DNA of 52,655 nt from Mycobacterium sherrisii (GTDB lineage: Bacteria; Actinomycetota; Actinomycetes; Mycobacteriales; Mycobacteriaceae): the NCBI RefSeq assembly GCF_002102355.1, contig NZ_LQPT01000112.1:1-52655 (forward strand), read 5' to 3'. Both the position numbers and the translations under genes were made by a program. Shown here piece by piece: positions 6,001 to 29,395 of the stretch. Numbering within the stretch: the stretch's first letter is position 1; every line of letters starts with the position of its first letter. The notes under the pieces were generated by a model. It did not search any database. It saw only the letters and a list, made by a program, of their open reading frames with translations, and had not been told where the DNA came from.

Positions 6001-9000
6001 TGATCGAGCAATTGCACCAAGTGTTGCTGGACATGATCGCCAAGCCCAACCGCAGGTTGTCGTCGACTCCGCTGTTGAATCCCGACGAGCAGACGCTGGT
6101 CGATGAGCTGGGCAACCGGCGGCTACTGACCCGGCCCGCGCCCGCGCCGCTGTCGATTCCGGAACTGTTTGCCGAACACGTGCACCATGACCCCGACGCG
6201 GTGGCGGTGCGCTACGACGGCCGCGCCCACACCTACCGCGAGCTGGACGAGGGCGCCAACCGGGTGGCCCACCTGCTCGCCGACTACGGCGCCGGTCCGG
6301 GACAGGTTGTGGCGCTTCTGTTTTCCCGCTGTGCTCAGGCGATCGTCGCGATGCTGGGAGTGCTGAAGGCGGGGGCGGCGTATCTGGCGATCGATCCGGC
6401 CCATCCCGACGCCCGGATCGGCTTCATGCTCGCCGACGCGGCACCGGTCGCCGCCCTGACCTCCGCCGGACTGCGTGGGCGCCTGGACGGATACGGCGTG
6501 CCCGCCATCGACATCGACGATCCGGCGCTGAACGGTCAGCCCGCCACCAGTCCGCCGCCGCCGACCGCCGATGACATCGCGTACCTGATCTACACCTCGG
6601 GCACCACCGGAACGCCCAAAGGTGTTGCGGTGACTCACGGTAACCTGGCCCACCTGGCCGCCTCAGAACCCCACCACCTGCCGCTGGCGCAGGTGTGGAC
6701 GCAATGCCACTCCTACGGCTTCGACTTCTCGGTCTGGGAGATCTGGGCCGCGCTGCTCGGCGGCGCCCGCCTGGTCGTGGTGCCCGAGTCGGTGACCGCC
6801 TCCCCGGCGGACTTCCACACCTTGCTGGTCGACGAGGGCGTCACCGTGCTTACTCAAACACCCTCGGCGGCAACGATATTGACACCACAGGGACTGGACT
6901 CGGTGGCCGTGCTGCTGGGCGGGGAGGCCTGCCCCGCCGACGTTGTGGACCGATGGGCGGACGGCCGGGTGGTGATCAACGCCTACGGTCCCACCGAGGT
7001 CACGGTCTACGCCTCGATGAGTGCGCCGCTGACGGCGGGATCGGGCGCGGCACCGATCGGCGCGCCGGTACCCACCGCCGCGCTGTTCGTGTTGGACGGC
7101 TGGCTGCGTCCGGTGCCCATCGGCGTGGTGGGCGAGCTGTACGTCGCCGGCGCCGGCGTCGCCTGCGGCTACCTCGGTCGCGCCCGGCTGACCGCGGAGC
7201 GGTTTGTGGCCTGCCCGTTCGCTGAGCGTGGCGCCCGGATGTACCGCACCGGCGACCTGGTTCGCTGGCATCCCGACGGCCAACTCGACTACGTCGGCCG
7301 GGCCGACGAACAGGTCAAGATCCGCGGCTACCGCGTCGAGCCCGGCGAGATCCAGGCCGCGCTGGCCGCCGCGGACGGCGTCACCCAGGCCGCGGTAGTC
7401 ACCCGCGACGACGGGCTCGGCGGCACCCGCGTGGTCGGGTATGTCACCGGGACGGCCGACCCGGCCGAGCTGCGAAACCGCTTGGCGGACAAGTTGCCCG
7501 GATACCTGGTGCCCGCGGCCGTCGTGGTGCTGGAGACGTTGCCGCTGACCACGAACGGGAAACTCGACACCCGCGCCCTGCCGGCCCCCGACTTCGGGGA
7601 CACCGGTAACTACCGCGCCCCCGCCGGGGCCGTGGAAGAGATCCTGGCCGGCATCTACGCCCGCGTCCTGGGCCTCGACCACGTCGGTGTCGACGACTCG
7701 TTCTTCGACCTAGGCGGGGACTCGCTGTCCGCGATGCGGCTGATCACCGCGATCAACTCCGGCCTGGACACCGATCTAGACGTGCACTGCCTGTTCGACG
7801 CGCCCACGATCGCCCGGCTGGCGCCGCGCATCGCGACCACCACAGCCGGGCGACGCAAGCCTTTGGTCGCGGGGCAGCGGCCGGCGCTGATTCCGTTGTC
7901 GTTTGCGCAATCTCGGCTGTGGTTCCTGTACCGGTTCGAGGGCGGGGTGGCGACCTACAACATGCCGACCGCATTCCGTATCGAGGGCGCCCTGGACGTC
8001 GCGGCGCTCGCCGCGGCGCTTGACGACGTGGTCGCCCGCCACGAAGCGTTGCGCACCATCTTCGTCGACATCGACGGTGTGCCCTACCAGGAGGTGCTGC
8101 CGGCCGCGCCGGGGCTGTGGCGGCGCGGCAACGACGCGGTGCGGTCGTTGCCGGGCGCGGAGCTGCTGCCCGAGTTGACCGCGCTGGCCACGTACCGGTT
8201 CGACCTGTCGGCCGAGATTCCGATTCGTGCGCAAATTTATTCGCTCAGCCCCGAGGATCATGTCGTCGGGATTGTGGTGCACCACATCGCCTTTGACGGG
8301 TGGTCGCTGGCGCCGATGGCCCGCGACATCGGCGAGGCGTACCGGGCCCGGCGCCGCGGCGGGGCGCCGGAGCGTGCCGCACTCTCGGTGCAGTACATCG
8401 ACTACACGCTGTGGCAACGAGCGCAGTTCGGCGACCTTGCCGACACCGACAGCCCCATCGCGGGGCAGCTCGCCTACTGGGAGGGCACGCTGGCGGGCAT
8501 GCCGGAGCGGCTGCAGCTGCCCACCGACCGCCCCTACCCGCTGGTGGCCGACTACCACGGCTCCCAGGTGACGCTGCAGTGGCCGGCCGAGTTGCAGCAG
8601 CGGATGCGCGAGGTGGCACGCGAGCACAACGCCACCAGCTTCATGGTGATGCAGGCCGCCTTGTCGGTACTGCTGTCCACGCTGACTTCGAGTTCCGATG
8701 TTGCGGTGGGCTTCCCGATCGCCGGGCGGCGCGACCCGGCACTCGATGAGCTGGTGGGCTTCTTCGTCAACACCCTGGTACTGCGCGTCGAGGTGACCGG
8801 CGATCCCACCTTTGCCGAGCTGCTCGCCCAGGTCCGCCGGCGCAGCCTGGCCGCCTACGAGAACCAGGACGTACCGTTCGAGGTTCTCGTCGAGCGGATC
8901 AACCCCACCCGCTCCCTGACCCATCACCCGCTGGTGCAGGTGATGCTGGCCTGGCAGAGCGTCCTGGGCCACAGCGCCGACGCCGCGTCCGGACTGGACC

Positions 9001-21856: not shown

Positions 21857-22339
21857 GTGAAACGTCTTCTCGCGGGTGCAATCGGAACCCTTGGCTTGGC
21901 GACGGCCGTGGTGGGTTGCTCGAGCGGCGGCCACACGGCCGGCCCGGCGTCCAGCCCCGCAGCCAGCATCGGCTCCGGAAGCGGTGCCCAGGTCAAGGTG
22001 GGCGGAGCCGACTTGGCGGGCGTGAACCCGGCATCGGTGACCTGTGTCAAGCAAGGCGGCAAGATCGACATCGGGAGCGGATCCACCGGCGGCGCCCAGC
22101 AGGCACTGGCCGTGGTGCTGACCGACGAAGCCACCCCCAAGGTCGAGTCGCTGGCACTTGTGGTGGACGGCAACGCATTGTCGGTCGCCAACAATATGGG
22201 CGCTCGGGTCGGGTCGGCCAACGTGGTGGTGGACGGTAAGACCTACACCATCACCGGGCAGGCGCAGGGCGCCGACCTGAAAAACCCGATGGCCGGGATG
22301 ATCACCAAAGACTTCAGCATCAAGGTGACATGCGGCTGA
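21857..22339 (+). CDS. LpqH-family (19-kDa antigen-like) lipoprotein
   Basis: A 160-aa secreted lipoprotein. It begins with a short basic n-region (MKRLL) and a hydrophobic core, then lipobox VVGC with the acylated Cys at residue 21, followed by a Ser/Gly/Ala/Pro linker. The mature part carries the LpqH family pattern: VTCVKQGGKIDI, AVVLTDEATPKVESL, YTITGQAQGADLKNPM and a final IKVTCG, giving two cysteines that may form a disulfide. Family members sit at the mycobacterial cell envelope and are TLR2 agonists. The GTG start has a GGAAGGA ribosome site upstream. It is divergent from the enoyl-CoA hydratase. Confidence 0.9.
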   Translation: MKRLLAGAIGTLGLATAVVGCSSGGHTAGPASSPAASIGSGSGAQVKVGGADLAGVNPASVTCVKQGGKIDIGSGSTGGAQQALAVVLTDEATPKVESLALVVDGNALSVANNMGARVGSANVVVDGKTYTITGQAQGADLKNPMAGMITKDFSIKVTCG

Positions 22340-22400: not shown

Positions 22401-22406
22401 TATGAT
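22401..22406 (+). promoter_or_regulatory. -10 hexamer TATGAT, leaderless start of the TPR-CHAT genes
   Basis: TATGAT ends 6 bases before the GTG at 22413, so the transcript would begin on the start codon. It is the strongest such motif in the window and lies in the short gap after the lipoprotein gene. The TPR gene has no Shine-Dalgarno, as expected for a leaderless message. Confidence 0.6.
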
Positions 22407-22412
22407 GCAGCC

Positions 22413-24137
22413 GTGGCGATCTCCGACGATCTAGAGCGGGCACGCCGCCTGGCGCTGGCCGCCGACGAGGCCGGCGCCCGCGAACTGCTGCTGTCCCTGG
22501 TGCCCGAAATCGAGCGGCGGGACCGCGACGACGAGCTGTTGGAAGTCTTCGCGCAGCTGGGTGAAATCTACCTCGCCCGCGGCGCGAATGACGCGGTGCA
22601 CGAATGCATCCGGCGCATCGACGACTGCCTGGCGATCTACTCCGGGATTGTGGACGGCACCATGCCCGAGGCCGCGGGGCAGACCACGATGCCCGGCACC
22701 GACATTGTGCGAATGATCCGTCGTTATTCGCGCCGCGCTCGGTTTCTCCGGGCGGGAGTCGCCGCCGCGCTGGGTGAGCACGAGGGCGCGGCGACGGCAC
22801 TGGCCGCATTGCGCGACGCCGACGAGACGTTCCCCGAACTGGCCGCCGAACACGTCCGGCTGGTCGTGCAGGCGCAGGTTTTGTGCGCCTCCGCGCTGTG
22901 CGACGACGACCTGCACATGGATTCGGTTCCGTTGTGGGAGAAGGTGGTCGACGCATTCGACGGGCTCGGTGATTCCGAGCTCGACGACCGGGTGCGGGTG
23001 GACGCGGGCACGGCGTACGGCAGATTCTGCGTAGAGACCGGACGACTCGGCGATGCCGAGCCGTGGCTGCGCCGCGCCGGTGCCCGAGCTCGGCCGCGGG
23101 GATGGGAATTGGCAGACGCCAGAACGCAATTAGAGCGGGCCGCGGCCAGCTGGCTGGTGGGTGACCATACCACGACCGAACAGCTGGTGTCGCAAGCCTA
23201 CCCCGTCATCGCGCGGTATGAACGGGCGCACGACGTCGCGCGCTGCTGGTTGTACCTGGGACTGATCCGGCTGGCGTCCGGGGCGCTGGAAGCCGCGAAT
23301 GAGTGCTGGGAACACGCCGAACGACATTGGCGCGAACTCGGCAAGCCCCTACGCCTACACCGTATCCTGTTGCAGCGCAGCTGGATTGCGATTTTTCGGA
23401 GTCGGTTCGCGGACGCGGTGGAATTGATCGCCCAGGCCCGCGAACTCCTCGACTCCTCACCACGCAGCAGTTGGCTGCAGTACGCCCAGCTGGACAATCA
23501 CCTCGGCACGGTGTGGCGAGCGGATGCGTTGGCAGACCTCGGATTCGACAGCTCGGGCGACCCCGACGAGACACTGCAGGAGACCGAGGCGCGGCAGGTC
23601 GAGGGCATCGGGATCGTCCGCGGCGAGGTCGGCACGCCCGAATATTGGCGCGCGATGACCAAACTCGAACAAGCCGCCGAACTCAAAGTGCCGGCCGCCC
23701 TGGCCGTCGACTCGGTGCGGTTCTCGATTGCCGACGCCGACGCCAGATCGCGCTGGGCGGCGACGATTTCGGCACCCATCCTGGCCGGCGCCTTCGCCGT
23801 CGCCTGGGAGTGGGAGAACACCCAATTGATCAGTGAGCTCGTCGAATACCACAGCGCACGAGGTACTTTCGACACCGACTCGCAGCGCGCTGCCATCGGC
23901 GAGTGGGCGTCGACCGGTACCGCCACGGTGCTCGTCGACGCCGCTCCGGAGCCGGCCCTGGCCGCGTCCGGGCCGGCGGTGAGCGCCGGGCGCTCGCTCA
24001 CCCGGCTTGGCCCGCTACCCCCGCTGCAGATGCAGCCCGACAGCCCGCCGATCATGAGTCACTATCGCGAACTGGCCCGGCAGCGTTATGGCCGCCCGGT
24101 CACCGCCGCCGAGCCCGCCTGGTCGACCTGGCCATGA
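22413..24137 (+). CDS. TPR-repeat protein, partner of the CHAT protease
   Basis: A 574-aa, soluble, mostly helical protein with repeated helix pairs of TPR type (for example ARELLLSLVPEIERR, LLEVFAQLGEIYLARG, DVARCWLYLGLIRLASGALEAANECWEHAERHW). They run from the N-terminus to about residue 450, after which a Pro-rich tail ends in PAWSTWP. There is no signal peptide or membrane segment. It overlaps the CHAT gene by ATGA at 24134-24137, so the two are translated together. TPR scaffolds commonly bind or hold CHAT proteases in check; that role is inference here. The GTG at 22413 is chosen over the GTG at 22365 because of the -10 motif placed exactly 6 bases upstream. Confidence 0.8.
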   Translation: MAISDDLERARRLALAADEAGARELLLSLVPEIERRDRDDELLEVFAQLGEIYLARGANDAVHECIRRIDDCLAIYSGIVDGTMPEAAGQTTMPGTDIVRMIRRYSRRARFLRAGVAAALGEHEGAATALAALRDADETFPELAAEHVRLVVQAQVLCASALCDDDLHMDSVPLWEKVVDAFDGLGDSELDDRVRVDAGTAYGRFCVETGRLGDAEPWLRRAGARARPRGWELADARTQLERAAASWLVGDHTTTEQLVSQAYPVIARYERAHDVARCWLYLGLIRLASGALEAANECWEHAERHWRELGKPLRLHRILLQRSWIAIFRSRFADAVELIAQARELLDSSPRSSWLQYAQLDNHLGTVWRADALADLGFDSSGDPDETLQETEARQVEGIGIVRGEVGTPEYWRAMTKLEQAAELKVPAALAVDSVRFSIADADARSRWAATISAPILAGAFAVAWEWENTQLISELVEYHSARGTFDTDSQRAAIGEWASTGTATVLVDAAPEPALAASGPAVSAGRSLTRLGPLPPLQMQPDSPPIMSHYRELARQRYGRPVTAAEPAWSTWP

Positions 24138-25495
24138 CCCAACGGGATCGGCCTACCCTCGTGCTGCGGTACGCTGACGTCGGTATCGCCACCTACGCCA
24201 GTTTGCGCGTCGTCGGGCAGCCGTCGCGGACCGTGAACTGGGTGATCGAAGATCCCATCCTGCTGGCGGCCTTGGCGGAACTCGACAACGCCATCCCGGA
24301 ACCGGACGGGCCGGAGAGCCGCCGCGCAGCCATCGAGCGAGCCTTGGCCACAGGGCCTTTCGCCGCACCGGACAGCGAGCTTACCGTCGCCTACATCCTG
24401 GGCGTGCTGCTGATCGGCATGGCCGGCTGGCAACTGCTGGCCGAGTTCACCGCCTCGCCGCGCGCGGCGCTGTTCGTGTCGCCCAGCGCTCGTCTGGCCC
24501 GCGTGCCGTGGGGCCTGCTGGCGGTGCCGAAGTCGGGCCCGAGCAAGGAGGAGTTGGTGCGCGCCCGCCACGAGGCCATCACGGCCAGCGGTCGCGTCGC
24601 GGCCCGGATCCCTTGGCAGTTGGCCGATATCGGCGAGCATACCGACGGACAGCGGCTGGTGGAGCTGGTCGACGTGCTGATGGCGGTTCCGGCGAACATC
24701 GTGCACGCGCCCCGCACACCGGACAGTTGGCATGCCCGCAAAGACGGTCCGCCCCTGCTGGTCCTGGACCCGCGCGTGCCGGGGCAGCGCCCGGACTCGG
24801 CGCTAGGCTCCGTGCTGGGCCGTCCATCCTCGGAAACTGTCGTAGCACAACATTTCTGTGCACTTCGGGTACGTCGGTCGGTGCTGCCCAGGGTTGACGA
24901 GGTCATCGAATTGTTCCGCCGGCCGGACGCCGACCGCGCGTGGCTGGCCGAACAGCTCAGGCAGGAGCCGAGTCGGCTGTTCTACGTCGGTCACGCGAGT
25001 TCGGCTGACACACACCCGGATCATCGCGCCCAGGCCGACCGGGCTGCCCTGCACCTGGCCTGCAGGGCGGCAGCCCCCGGCGATGCCGACGCCATTGGCG
25101 ACCACCGCCCGCTGACCGCGTCGGACCTGATGGCGCTGCGGTTGACGATCCCGCCGCGGGTCGCCTTGCTGGCCTGCGGATCGGGCGGCGACTACCGTTT
25201 CGACGAGGCGACCGGTCTGGTCGCCGCGATGATCCTCAGCGGCGCACAACTGGTGACCGCGACGCTCTGGTCGCTTCCCACCACGGCCGCCTACCGCCAA
25301 TTCACTGCTGCGCAAGGCGATCCGATGGCCGATGCGGTTGTCGCGGTGGATCGCGCCCACGAAGAGGCCGAGGCGGGATCTGCGATCAACCGGTGGCAGC
25401 GTGAGCAATTGCGCCGGTGGCGCGGGGGCGACGTCGCCGCGAGCCCTCTGTACTGGGCCGCGCTGATCACGTTCGCGGTCGACGGTGTCCGTTAG
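24134..25495 (+). CDS. CHAT-domain (caspase-like) protease
   Basis: A 453-aa protein whose C-terminal half is a CHAT domain. The catalytic His lies in FYVGHASS (about residue 285) and the catalytic Cys in VALLACGSGGDY (about residue 348). The family's C-terminal strand-turn, GAQLVTATLWSLPTTAA, follows. The N-terminal half has a helical, hydrophobic stretch (YILGVLLIGMAGWQLL) and RVPWGLLAVP, typical of the region before CHAT domains. CHAT enzymes are clan CD cysteine peptidases that usually cleave partner proteins after a signal. It overlaps the TPR gene upstream and is followed by a short opposite-strand gene, then by two unknown genes. Confidence 0.88.
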   Translation: MTQRDRPTLVLRYADVGIATYASLRVVGQPSRTVNWVIEDPILLAALAELDNAIPEPDGPESRRAAIERALATGPFAAPDSELTVAYILGVLLIGMAGWQLLAEFTASPRAALFVSPSARLARVPWGLLAVPKSGPSKEELVRARHEAITASGRVAARIPWQLADIGEHTDGQRLVELVDVLMAVPANIVHAPRTPDSWHARKDGPPLLVLDPRVPGQRPDSALGSVLGRPSSETVVAQHFCALRVRRSVLPRVDEVIELFRRPDADRAWLAEQLRQEPSRLFYVGHASSADTHPDHRAQADRAALHLACRAAAPGDADAIGDHRPLTASDLMALRLTIPPRVALLACGSGGDYRFDEATGLVAAMILSGAQLVTATLWSLPTTAAYRQFTAAQGDPMADAVVAVDRAHEEAEAGSAINRWQREQLRRWRGGDVAASPLYWAALITFAVDGVR

Positions 25496-25498
25496 CAC

Positions 25499-25738
25499 TC
25501 AGAGGGCGGCCAACCAGGCCGCGTGGACAGCCAAAACATCGTCGGGCAGCGAAAGCTTCTCCCGCGCAGCCGGATCGAACGCGACCAGCACCACCAGGCC
25601 GGGCCGCAGCAACGATACGTCCGGATCGTCCTCACCCCTCGCGAGCCGACCGATGAACGTCTCGCCGGACGCGGCAACCACCTCGATGAAGACCTGCCGC
25701 TCGCCGGCCCGACCGAGCACTGACATCAGCTTGTTCAT
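25499..25738 (-). CDS. Small protein of unknown function between the CHAT gene and its neighbours
   Basis: A 79-aa protein, MNKLMSVLGRAGERQ followed by strand-rich sequence and SLLRPGLVVLVAFDPAAREK, then a helical AVHAAWLAAL. It has no signal peptide or membrane segment. The RPGxVVxVxxDP pattern recalls small beta domains found in other actinobacterial proteins, but I cannot name the family. It is antiparallel to the cassette: its stop lies 3 bases after that of the CHAT gene and its start faces the promoter of the next gene. Longer frames upstream (to 25870) overlap that gene and are not favoured. Confidence 0.6.
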   Translation of the reverse strand: MNKLMSVLGRAGERQVFIEVVAASGETFIGRLARGEDDPDVSLLRPGLVVLVAFDPAAREKLSLPDDVLAVHAAWLAAL

Positions 25739-25809
25739 GCGTCCAGGCTGGTGGTGCGCCCGGGCTACCGAACCCAACTTTTTCGCTGCCTCTCGCCGCG
25801 AAATGCCCC

Positions 25810-25815
25810 TATTCT
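25810..25815 (+). promoter_or_regulatory. -10 hexamer TATTCT, leaderless start
   Basis: TATTCT ends 6 bases before the ATG at 25822, so the predicted transcript begins with AUG. This gives the second half of the CHAT cassette its own promoter, divergent from the 79-aa gene. Confidence 0.55.
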
Positions 25816-25821
25816 GTGCTG

Positions 25822-27150
25822 ATGAGTGCCGAGTCCCAGCTGGCCACCAACGTGGCGGCGGGCCATCCACGCCGGTCCGTCATCGACCAGGCGTGGCGGT
25901 CGCTGGGTCCCGGAGTCGAGGTGCTTAGCAGCGACGACGGCGGCCCGCTGACCCGGACCGTCAAGCGCATCATCGACCCGCTGGTGCTGCGGCTGCGCGC
26001 CAATCCGCAGTACTCGGCCCCCCTCGTCGACGCCGCCACCGCCGCGGCCATGCACGATCTGATAACGTCCACTGCGTCCGAATTGCGTTCCACGGCAGCA
26101 TGGTTCGCGGTTCTCAAGCTCGAACGCCGCAGGCAGCGGATCCGTAGCGGCAATGCCCAGGAACTCTACTTCCCGGTATGTTTCGAGCTCGCAGTCACCA
26201 AAGGTCCACCGGCGCCGGAAGATAGCGAAACCGCTGCCGGAGTGCTCGCAGATATCCATCAGGGTCGCGACCGCACCGGGATCGAGGTGCTGCACCAATA
26301 CGTGGCGGGTCCCGGCGTCGTCGCCGCGCTGACCGAGCAGCTGGACCGCAGCTGGCGTGACGTGCGGGCCGGTGACACCGGGGCGGACCGCTTCCTGGCC
26401 GAGCTCGGCGTGGTGCTCGGGCCCGCGCACGGCCACAACGCCGCCGCGGCACGACAGCGGCTCTGGTCGGCCATGATCGACGACGCCGCGCCCTACAACC
26501 TGGGCGCCCTGGCACGGGTCGACCCGGCCGCACTGCCCTGGTCCATCGTCGGGCTGGGGTTGAGCTCGGCGGTGCCGCTCCGGCCGCCACCCCTCACCGG
26601 CGACCTGGACCGCGACCACAGCGACCGCCCCCTGGACCGCAGCGTGGTCGACCGGGTCCGCGCGACATTGCGGCGCGCCCTCGACCGGGACGCCCTGCCC
26701 GACATCCCGTTGCTTTGCGAGGAGGAAGTCGACCGCGCGTGCGCGCCGTGGGGCCTGCTGTCGGAGGACAAGCAGGCCACGCTGGTGGCCGGTATCGAGG
26801 TCGCGGTCGAACTGGCGCCCTTGGACCGCTCCGTCACCAGCCGTTACGCGCTGGCCGCCCAGATCCAGGCGCGGTTACGGAAGGAGGCGTACGTGCTGCA
26901 CGCCCGGCGCTATCTCGCCGAGGGCGGGCCGATCCATCCCCGGCAACGGCAGGTGGTCGATGACCTGGCGGCCTACGCTCCGCTCTACCTGAGCCGGTTG
27001 TGGGCCCGCCTGCACGGCCGCGACGTCTGGCAGGAGCCGTGCGACGACGTCGACGAGATGCGGTCGCTGCTGGAGGGGGTGGCGCGGTCGGTCAGCCTTG
27101 ACCACCGGCAACGCATCAAGGCGATGCTCGAATTGCAGGTGGCCGGATGA
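25822..27150 (+). CDS. Conserved-looking protein of unknown function, CHAT cassette component
   Basis: A 442-aa soluble protein that I do not recognise. It is predicted mainly helical, Arg/Asp/Leu-rich, without signal peptide, membrane segment or known catalytic motif. Landmarks: RTVKRIIDPLVLRLRANPQY (about 50-70), ELYFPVCFELAVTKGP (about 113-128), a loop with AHGHNAAAARQRLW, CEEEVDRACAPWGLL (about 306-320), and a C-terminal helical block after about residue 370. It overlaps the next gene by ATGA (27147-27150), so the two products are probably made in fixed ratio and may form a complex. The role with the CHAT/TPR pair is inferred from position only. Confidence 0.75.
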   Translation: MSAESQLATNVAAGHPRRSVIDQAWRSLGPGVEVLSSDDGGPLTRTVKRIIDPLVLRLRANPQYSAPLVDAATAAAMHDLITSTASELRSTAAWFAVLKLERRRQRIRSGNAQELYFPVCFELAVTKGPPAPEDSETAAGVLADIHQGRDRTGIEVLHQYVAGPGVVAALTEQLDRSWRDVRAGDTGADRFLAELGVVLGPAHGHNAAAARQRLWSAMIDDAAPYNLGALARVDPAALPWSIVGLGLSSAVPLRPPPLTGDLDRDHSDRPLDRSVVDRVRATLRRALDRDALPDIPLLCEEEVDRACAPWGLLSEDKQATLVAGIEVAVELAPLDRSVTSRYALAAQIQARLRKEAYVLHARRYLAEGGPIHPRQRQVVDDLAAYAPLYLSRLWARLHGRDVWQEPCDDVDEMRSLLEGVARSVSLDHRQRIKAMLELQVAG

Positions 27151-28310
27151 GGCTCGTCGCCGATGCCGGGCTGTGGACGGTCGGGCCAGCCGCCGCGAAG
27201 ACGCCGCTGGCCGCGGTGCTGGAAATCAGCGGCGCCCTGCTGTCCTGGACGGTCGACGATCCCCCCGACGACGCGGGAGTCCACATCACCATCACCGAGC
27301 TGTCGCGCGCCGACTGGCTGTGGCGGGTGTTCGGCGAGGCCGGGCACGTCGCGCTCGCCGCTGCCACGCAGGAGGGGGCCGGCCAAAGCAGCATCGAGCT
27401 CACCGGTGTCGACATCCTGCCCGGATCGGTGGCCCCGCTGCGCCGGCTCGCCGTCGGCCACTGGTTGCGGCGCTGGTGGCCGGCGAGCCGGCAGGACGGC
27501 ATCGCCGGCCTGGACCGCGCCCTCCTGGACGCCGAGCTGGCACTGCTGACCGTGGGGGCGCAGGGCTTTTTCACCGACGACACGCTGGACTCGGATGTGG
27601 CCGGCTTGTTGGCTCCGCATGCCCCGGCACTGTTGGTCCATGCCCGCGCCGGTGATCCCCGGGTCACCGACCTGGTCCGCGCGGCCGCCGACCTGGCCGA
27701 TGAGGTCGGCCAGGTCGGCGGCGACGAGAACGCGTGGACCGAACTGTTTGTCGCCCTTGATGATTCGAGCACCGCGATGGCGTCGACACTGGCCGAGCCG
27801 AGTGGGGTCCGCGGCGACTACGCGCTGGCCGCCGGCTCGGACGCGGGTATTCGGGGTGCGTCTCCGATCGCCCGAGGGGTCGCGTCCATCAATTGGACCG
27901 CGGTGCCGCCGGCCATCTTCGACGCGGGTGAGGACACCGTCAGTTGGCGCATCGAAGCGGCGGGCGCGTCCGCGGTCGCGGTGGTCGGTGCCGCGCTCGT
28001 CGGGCCCGACCCGGCCACCGGCATTGTGGTGCGGCTGCGCTCGGGAACCGTCAGCGGCGCCGACGTCCTGGACGCTGACGGCCTCGCGATCCTGCCGCTG
28101 ATCGACATTGAGCAGCGCCCGATCACCGAGTCCGCCGCCTGGGATCACGACTGGGCGGGCACCACCGTCACCGTCGGAGCCGAGACGACCGAAACTCGCG
28201 AGGCCCGGGACCGGATTCGGCGCTGGGTCCGCGCCCGGCTGGACCGCTTGGCCCTCGACACCTCCGACGCCTTCCTCGCCGAGATTTTGGCTGCCGAATC
28301 CGCCTACTAA
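27147..28310 (+). CDS. Protein of unknown function, last gene of the CHAT cassette
   Basis: A 387-aa soluble protein of no family I can name. The N-terminal part looks beta-rich (VLEISGALLSWTVDD, GVHITITEL). The middle is helical with conserved-looking Trp residues (HWLRRWWPA) and LLDAELALLTVGAQGFF. Residues 200-385 resemble a second beta domain (SINWTAVPPAIFDAGEDTV, IEAAGASAVAVVGAALVG), then an Arg-rich helix (RIRRWVRARLDRLALD). It is coupled to the upstream gene by an ATGA overlap. No nuclease, NTPase or pore motif is visible. Confidence 0.75.
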   Translation: MRLVADAGLWTVGPAAAKTPLAAVLEISGALLSWTVDDPPDDAGVHITITELSRADWLWRVFGEAGHVALAAATQEGAGQSSIELTGVDILPGSVAPLRRLAVGHWLRRWWPASRQDGIAGLDRALLDAELALLTVGAQGFFTDDTLDSDVAGLLAPHAPALLVHARAGDPRVTDLVRAAADLADEVGQVGGDENAWTELFVALDDSSTAMASTLAEPSGVRGDYALAAGSDAGIRGASPIARGVASINWTAVPPAIFDAGEDTVSWRIEAAGASAVAVVGAALVGPDPATGIVVRLRSGTVSGADVLDADGLAILPLIDIEQRPITESAAWDHDWAGTTVTVGAETTETREARDRIRRWVRARLDRLALDTSDAFLAEILAAESAY

Positions 28311-28327
28311 GACCAGTCACTATTCCC

Positions 28328-28333
28328 TATGCT
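28328..28333 (+). promoter_or_regulatory. -10 hexamer TATGCT, leaderless start
   Basis: TATGCT ends 6 bases before the GTG at 28340, predicting a leaderless transcript for the dehydrogenase-like gene. It sits in the 29-base gap after the CHAT cassette. Confidence 0.55.
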
Positions 28334-28339
28334 GAGCGA

Positions 28340-29395
28340 GTGCCAAACAACTATCGAGTCGTTCAGTGGAACACCGGAAACGTGGGCAAGAGCTCGCTGA
28401 AATCGATCGCCGACAACCCCACCCTGGAGCTGGTCGGCTGCTACGCGTGGTCGCCGGACAAGGTCGGCCGCGACGCCGGCGAGCTGGTGGGCATCGCCCG
28501 GCTCGGTATCGCCGCGACCAATGACGTGGACGAACTGCTCGCGCTCAAACCGGACTGTGTGGTCTACAACCCGATGTGGATCAACGTCGACGAGCTGGTG
28601 CGTATCCTGTCCGCCGGCGTCAACGTGGTGACCACCGCTTCGTTCATCACCGGGCACAACCTGGGTGAGGGCCGCGACCGCCTGCGGGAGGCCGCCGAGT
28701 TGGGCGGCGCGACGATCTTCGGCTCCGGCGTCAGCCCGGGCTTCGCCGAGCTGCTGGCGATCGTGTCGGCGATGGTGTGCAACCGGATCGACAAGGTCAC
28801 CGTCAACGAGGCCGCCGACACCACGTTCTACGACTCCCCCGAAACGGAAAAGCCCGTCGGCTTCGGGCAGCCGATCGACCACCCGGACCTGCCGGCGATG
28901 GCCGCGCAGGGGACGGCGATCTTCGGCGAGGCCGTCCGGCTGGTGGGCGACGCGCTCGGGGTCGAACTCGACGAAGTCAAATGTGTCGCCGAGTTCGCCC
29001 AAACCACCGAGGATCTGGTGATGGCGTCGTGGACCATCCCGGCGGGGCACGTGGCGGGCACCTACATCAGCTGGCAAGGCATCAAAAACGGCAGCCCCCT
29101 GATCGATTTGAACGTGCGGTGGCGCAAGGGCCAGACGCTGGAGCCCGACTGGAAGATCGAGCAGGACGGCTGGGTGATTCAGATCGACGGCCAGCCGACG
29201 GTGACGACCAAGGTCGGCTTCCTGCCGCCGCCGTACTTCGAGGCGACGACGCTCGAGGAATTCATGGACCTCGGCCACATCATGACGGCGGTGCCCGCGA
29301 TCAACGCGATCCCGGCCGTCGTCGCCGCGGCACCGGGCATCGCCACCTACGCCAATCTGCCGCTGACACTGCCGAGGGGTTTCGCCAAGGTCTAG
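28340..29395 (+). CDS. NAD(P)-binding dihydrodipicolinate reductase-like dehydrogenase
   Basis: A 351-aa protein of the DapB/2,4-diaminopentanoate dehydrogenase-like family common in mycobacteria. The Rossmann motif is VVQWNTGNVGKSS at the N-terminus, followed by DCVVYNP and NVVTTASFITG, and a catalytic-domain segment GSGVSPGFAELL. Family members use NAD(P)H on imines or amino ketones, but mycobacterial ones have no assigned substrate. A paralogue lies at 49610. Its stop shares CTAG (29392-29395) with the convergent esterase gene. Confidence 0.82.
   Translation: MPNNYRVVQWNTGNVGKSSLKSIADNPTLELVGCYAWSPDKVGRDAGELVGIARLGIAATNDVDELLALKPDCVVYNPMWINVDELVRILSAGVNVVTTASFITGHNLGEGRDRLREAAELGGATIFGSGVSPGFAELLAIVSAMVCNRIDKVTVNEAADTTFYDSPETEKPVGFGQPIDHPDLPAMAAQGTAIFGEAVRLVGDALGVELDEVKCVAEFAQTTEDLVMASWTIPAGHVAGTYISWQGIKNGSPLIDLNVRWRKGQTLEPDWKIEQDGWVIQIDGQPTVTTKVGFLPPPYFEATTLEEFMDLGHIMTAVPAINAIPAVVAAAPGIATYANLPLTLPRGFAKV

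Follow-up and report, generated by a model that had tools for sequence, protein, structure and literature searches.

Cleavage of the anti-sigma factors RseA and RsiW exposes a C-terminal X-A-A sequence for ClpXP. In the parts of the published reports on which this and later comparisons rest, ClpXP degrons are described as exposed in the cleaved anti-sigma factor RsgI and in cleaved LexA-like proteins (PMC12203970; PMC5742171), and ClpXP is described as degrading GFP-YALAA but not GFP-LAA (PMC7652416). In mycobacteria, SsrA-tagged products are turned over by Clp protease (PMC5515868). The TPR-CHAT protease of Jc-Craspase cuts Csx30 at AIAA/SSEK, and the same source, in the portion drawn on here, gives the cleavage site as non-conserved among Craspase orthologues and substitutions in it as tolerated (PMC11106740). 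The N-terminal fragment of Csx30 was undetected by immunoblot, rose in level when its new end was blocked and was reported to be unstable (PMC10028731). In the case of Jc-Csx30 this fragment would, from the cut site given (PMC11106740), end in AIAA, which is an X-A-A end of the kind read by ClpXP.

The window, a stretch of 52,655 nucleotides from Mycobacterium sherrisii, carries a four-gene TPR-CHAT module with two new partner families, here called A and B, which is undescribed and occurs in mycobacteria as well as in other actinobacteria; no description of it was found by a literature search whose coverage left most subscription journals outside. The gene order in the region is an enoyl-CoA hydratase-like gene on the minus strand, an LpqH-type lipoprotein, TPR, CHAT, a 79-aa gene on the minus strand, A, B and a diaminopentanoate-dehydrogenase-like gene. 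On the forward strand the module consists of a TPR-like protein of 574 aa with a GTG start (22413..24137), a CHAT (caspase-like) protease of 453 aa (24134..25495), protein A of 442 aa (25822..27150) and protein B of 387 aa (27147..28310). When the ORF coordinates were re-read all four ORFs were found where the sequence-only reading had placed them, and the ATGA overlaps it had described at 24134 and 27147 are both present. Related mycobacterial loci retain the overlap of 4 bp in 59 of 75 TPR/CHAT pairs and in 79 of 80 A/B pairs, with start codons chosen by script. The two leaderless -10 boxes proposed earlier are likewise in place, i.e., TATGAT for the TPR-CHAT transcript (22401..22406, forward strand), 6 bases 5' of the GTG, and TATTCT for the A-B transcript (25810..25815, forward strand), 6 bases 5' of the ATG. 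TANNNT lies within 16 bases upstream of the start in 75 of 75 related TPR genes and 78 of 80 related A genes, whereas a control stretch farther upstream has it in 1 of 75 and 0 of 80. A -10 box of the leaderless type (28328-28340) likewise precedes the dehydrogenase-like gene downstream, with TANNNT in 56 of 56 upstream regions, and this promoter style is therefore not special to the module.

The CHAT protein matches PF12770 with an E-value of 1.2e-15 (58.2 bits, curated cut-off 24) and is the sole CHAT match in the 5.56-Mb genome. Its His287 (24992..24994, forward strand) in VGHASS and Cys348 (25175..25177, forward strand) in LLACGSG, which had been read as retained, are invariant in 20 of 20 and 42 of 42 homologues; from knowledge of the CHAT family we take them to be the catalytic dyad. 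An insertion of about 40 residues (CHAT residues ~133-172) is found in the window and in several other Mycobacterium loci and is absent in others. The TPR-like protein, present in all 42 four-gene loci, matches TPR models only, all of them below their cut-offs.

Proteins A and B were claimed to have no known catalytic domain, and the family scans found no family for either. There were zero matches in NCBIfam and PADLOC, Pfam gave one chance-level match for B (E 0.11), scans of 20 alignment rows of A and 17 of B returned scattered single-row families only (best E 0.028 and 0.016, respectively), and the profiles of A and B found no clear relative among PDB sequences. Of the structure models that had been proposed as a check, that of B was obtained with a mean pLDDT of 76.2, and that of A is mostly helical and too poor to use. 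The N-terminal domain of protein B is helical and contains invariant Trp57, Trp106, Trp110, Trp111 and Pro112. It is followed by a linker (~211-238) of low pLDDT, in which the model has no strand, and by a beta-rich C-terminal domain (~240-345) with invariant Gly244, Trp250, Pro254, Asp259 and Trp267.

From sequence comparison it is near certain that TPR, CHAT, A and B form one co-inherited unit. The profile of A has a match in 35 of 394 genomes of the class (21 of the 26 Mycobacterium genomes and 14 others), and the co-occurrence of the four genes that had been expected in other genomes was found in 32 of these 35. In the three exceptions the locus lies at a contig end and has only A and B, A is a fragment interrupted by an in-frame stop, or the match is marginal and stands without neighbours. 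In an order sample of 200 genomes CHAT was matched in 32 and B in 28, and 27 of the 28 genomes with B also have a CHAT match, the single one without it being a marginal B match. Pairwise tree (patristic) distances of the four genes correlate at 0.915-0.967 over 42 four-gene loci, against a maximum of 0.23 for A and CHAT in 1000 label permutations. Among 80 Mycobacterium loci, many of them on short contigs, A and B are present in 80, CHAT in 78 and TPR in 77. Of the 21 loci from outside Mycobacterium, 20 have the order A-B-TPR-CHAT, and TPR and CHAT are a fusion in several; a single non-mycobacterial locus (L046) has the mycobacterial gene order. The locus search with protein A gave 479 loci, with the best 80 of the 479 listed, and among the matches listed the closest named relatives by protein A belong to slow-growing Mycobacterium, e.g., M. 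triplex (85%) and Mycobacterium sp. 1100029.7 (88%). In one locus (L175, ~6704-7342) a fragment of A with an in-frame stop has no B, TPR or CHAT nearby while other members of the genus have the whole module, and it is regarded as a decayed copy. Genome G021 carries a second TPR-CHAT pair (L048, 5493-8376) with neither A nor B beside it, so such pairs can also stand by themselves or be combined with different partners.

A role in CRISPR type III-E immunity is described for TPR-CHAT proteases (PMC11106740; PMC10028731), and the caspase-TPR ternary systems have been put forward as conflict systems (PMC8195603), both according to the parts of these sources drawn on. The present module could likewise serve anti-phage abortive infection, killing or arresting the infected cell, and its patchy presence in 35 of 394 genomes would fit such a role. 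We nevertheless consider this rather unlikely. A PADLOC 2.0.0 scan of five proteins at E-values up to 1 matched 0 families, viral contigs gave 47 pattern matches for A of which none was confirmed, and the module occupies conserved, syntenic chromosomal places with metabolic neighbours in Mycobacterium and in genus g36. The earlier suggestion of phage as the trigger found no support on the same grounds, even though relatives of A were found on six large plasmid records (five from Streptomyces, one from Nocardia), from which it follows that the module may be mobile in some lineages.

The sequence-only reading counted two partners of the TPR-CHAT pair. Proteins A and B stand as such, but a lipoprotein and a DUF3592-like membrane protein, M, recur as well; the reading had left the former uncounted and had overlooked the minus-strand gene at 25499-25738. 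The lipoprotein (21857..22339, forward strand) is of the LpqH type (PF05481 Myco_19_kDa, E 5.7e-29). Its gene adjoins the module in 73 of 80 Mycobacterium loci; the remaining seven are truncated, their contigs ending within the TPR gene or just short of it. In five Mycobacterium genomes without the module no orthologue of the lipoprotein was found, two having no match and three only paralogues of 38-40%, as compared with matches of 83 and 92% in two Mycobacterium genomes with the module. Counted over loci, it is present in 20 of 20 from Mycobacterium versus 3 of 21 others; the family stands beside the module in L046, L047 and L172, of which L047 and L172 lie in a separate clade of the A tree. 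Protein M combines N-terminal hydrophobic stretches with DUF3592-like repeats. In Mycobacterium its gene separates CHAT from A in 12 of 20 loci, and in other genera it stands beside the module in 14 of 21, five of these latter being weak matches (E about 1e-5). The 79-aa protein of the window (25499..25738, minus strand) is by hhalign a reduced form of M, matching the first repeat of the M of fast growers with the membrane part absent, and its gene is matched in 69 of 80 mycobacterial loci. The set of 79-aa proteins from slow growers aligns with fast-grower M at a probability of 97.7% (45% identity over 71 columns), but with distant M directly at only 42%, and hmmsearch gave no match there. 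Another recurrent neighbour, with weak PQQ/beta-propeller-like similarity below the Pfam cut-offs, was seen in the flanks of L052, L054, L055, L178, L180 and L183. The association with the lipoprotein and with M suggests a trigger at the envelope. The roles of these two proteins are assigned through guilt by association, and neither is universal; stress or envelope signalling on the one hand and defence on the other are equally plausible.

The idea that the protease cleaves a partner has gained a concrete candidate site, found by comparing B sequences. Within the inter-domain linker of B, which is otherwise variable, ALAA-G forms a near-invariant island, and in the window this island reads DYALAAG (B residues 224-230; 27816..27836, forward strand). 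The alignment of B has 121 rows (33 diverse, 78 mycobacterial and 10 further), one of which is unreadable. [A/S/T]-L-[A/V]-A is present in 120 of the 120 readable rows and is followed by Gly in 117, the rows being non-independent as 78 of the 121 are from one genus and some genomes are counted twice. By form, 115 rows have [A/T]LAA, two SLAA and three ALVA, and written with the preceding residue the motif is [YFLVWH][A/S/T]L[A/V]A. Among the 33 diverse B proteins residues 226-230 are A/T-L-A-A-G/R with Leu, Ala and Ala in 33 of 33, and the columns flanking residues 225-230 are mostly below 50% identity, i.e., the island ends abruptly on both sides. In the 42-locus alignment Gly is retained in 41 of 42. 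Taking the four proteins together, no more than eight words of four residues reach a conservation of 93% or higher, and ALAA and LAAG are among them. Neighbouring ORFs without a B label served as background, and in their 81,609 residues ALAA was counted 52 times and [YF]ALAA 0 times; from the frequency of ALAA the odds of finding it by composition among the eight conserved words are about half a percent, which is an after-the-fact estimate.

In this genome the tmRNA tag reads ADSHQRDYALAA. Of 26 module-bearing genomes 25 yielded a readable tag; 24 of these tags end in [YF]ALAA and the remaining one in YDLAA. Were B cut directly behind the motif, its N-terminal half would therefore carry the same ending as the host degradation tag. 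The aromatic residue of the motif did not covary with the tag, as genomes with a Y tag have Y in B in 6 of 6 cases and those with an F tag have F in only 4 of 18.

It is tentatively proposed that the module is an inherited protease switch, probably coupled to the envelope, in which CHAT cuts B at ALAA/G, an ssrA-like degron is exposed and A is freed. A and B would be co-expressed on one transcript and form a complex in which B keeps A inactive. TPR-CHAT would be activated by a signal, for which the lipoprotein or the DUF3592-like membrane protein may be the relay, and CHAT would cut the Ala229-Gly230 bond of B. This would leave an N-terminal fragment of B that ends in ...DYALAA like a tmRNA tag, and because of this ending ClpXP (or another Clp protease) is proposed to unfold and destroy it. 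Loss of the fragment would free A and make the switch irreversible. The confidence that can be placed in these parts differs. Cutting of B by CHAT at the linker motif is, from the alignments, about evenly balanced between true and false. The narrower proposition, that the caspase-like protease turns its partner B into a mimic of the ssrA tag for ClpXP and so releases A, is on the doubtful side. The release of A through loss of B may be expected by analogy, and for the full mechanism the chances are put at about a third. On the cleave-to-tag reading the cut sequence would be constant across actinobacteria because two proteases would have to read it one after the other.

The conservation of the island could have another origin, and it is a serious if not a probable alternative that ALAAG is a docking or structural element of B, e.g., a peptide serving to bind A or TPR, or the strand with which the C-terminal domain begins. 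B would then be a partner or sensor, and CHAT would cut elsewhere in B or in another protein. The spacing from the motif to the invariant Gly244 is nearly constant at 11-14 residues, Trp250, Pro254, Asp259 and Trp267 follow shortly downstream, and Craspase orthologues, which cut a non-conserved site and tolerate substitutions, do not lead one to predict a conserved motif in a relative; all this would sit well with such an element. On the other hand, the model has low confidence and no strand at this place, the island is abruptly bounded on both sides, and its letters are those of the core of the host tmRNA tag and of the known TPR-CHAT cut (PMC11106740, in the part drawn on). It is also conceivable that CHAT does cut B at ALAA/G but that no degron is involved, the cut freeing the beta-rich or the helical domain as an effector in a gasdermin-like manner. 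This is unlikely, even if it shares with the switch the site, the protease and the two-domain layout, as well as the precedent of a TPR-CHAT cut after Ala (PMC11106740). No known effector fold was recognised, the fold comparisons all giving results below trust level, and release of an effector would not by itself require a strict L-A-A, since substitutions around the Craspase site are tolerated (PMC11106740).

If the proposed switch is true, it provides a testable link between caspase-like CHAT proteases, the natural substrates of which are mostly unknown, and the tmRNA/ClpXP degradation route, and it would explain the instability of Csx30-type fragments after cleavage. A and B are two new protein families that travel with a TPR-CHAT protease, with B named as the likely substrate together with the bond that would be cut. 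The system is present in a large part of Mycobacterium (21 of the 26 sampled genomes) and in other actinobacterial families, and even if the degron idea fails it constitutes a compact, conserved protease pathway of which the literature search made here found no description.

Among described systems CATRA has the same ingredients by name, i.e., a caspase-like domain, TPR and an associated unknown protein (PMC8195603; PMC12657218; both consulted in part). It is nevertheless highly improbable that the module is of CATRA type. CATRA-N (PF20269) has 0 matches in the genome, with a model that matches 9 of 197 genomes of the class, and the profile comparison of A and B was negative, with hhalign probabilities of 0.3% for A and 0.1% for B against a CATRA alignment built, in checked reading frames, from 9 of the 14 places found. 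No CATRA or CATASP model appeared in the Pfam scans of A and B. Conversely, in the CATRA loci the profiles of A, B, TPR and CHAT gave nothing beyond weak matches, of which one CHAT-like and one TPR-like lie in L205, while L202 has a B-like match of 24 residues on a short antisense ORF.

Craspase (gRAMP/Cas7-11, TPR-CHAT/Csx29, Csx30, Csx31 and a sigma factor) shares with the module TPR and CHAT beside a two-domain partner that is the likely substrate. The cut of one orthologue after AIAA (PMC11106740) resembles the putative cut motif ALAA, whereas the Craspase motif is given in the consulted part of that source as non-conserved and the putative one of the module is conserved. Among the genes adjacent to the module that were read, no CRISPR gene or sigma factor is annotated. 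No match to Csx30 or Csx31 was listed for the profiles of A and B against PDB sequences, although a distant similarity may exist. In LexA, RseA, RsiW and RsgI the first cut exposes a C-terminal X-A-A that is read by ClpXP (PMC12203970; PMC5742171; RseA and RsiW partly PMC10028731; all seen in excerpt). That first cut is made by self-cleavage or by a membrane protease, whereas in the module it would be made by a caspase-like protease. B also differs from LexA in the absence of an S24 peptidase match, as found in the 17 rows scanned at E-values up to 10. The tmRNA (ssrA) tag, which ends in [YF]ALAA in nearly all genomes read, and the motif of B are alike. The motif of B is internal and encoded in the gene itself, and it would therefore come into play only once the chain has been cut immediately behind it. 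The logic of RseA, LexA and Csx30 would be the same as that of the proposed switch, here with a caspase-like protease for the first cut, and by analogy the systems probably closest to it in their working are Craspase-Csx30 and the anti-sigma factors with a latent degron.
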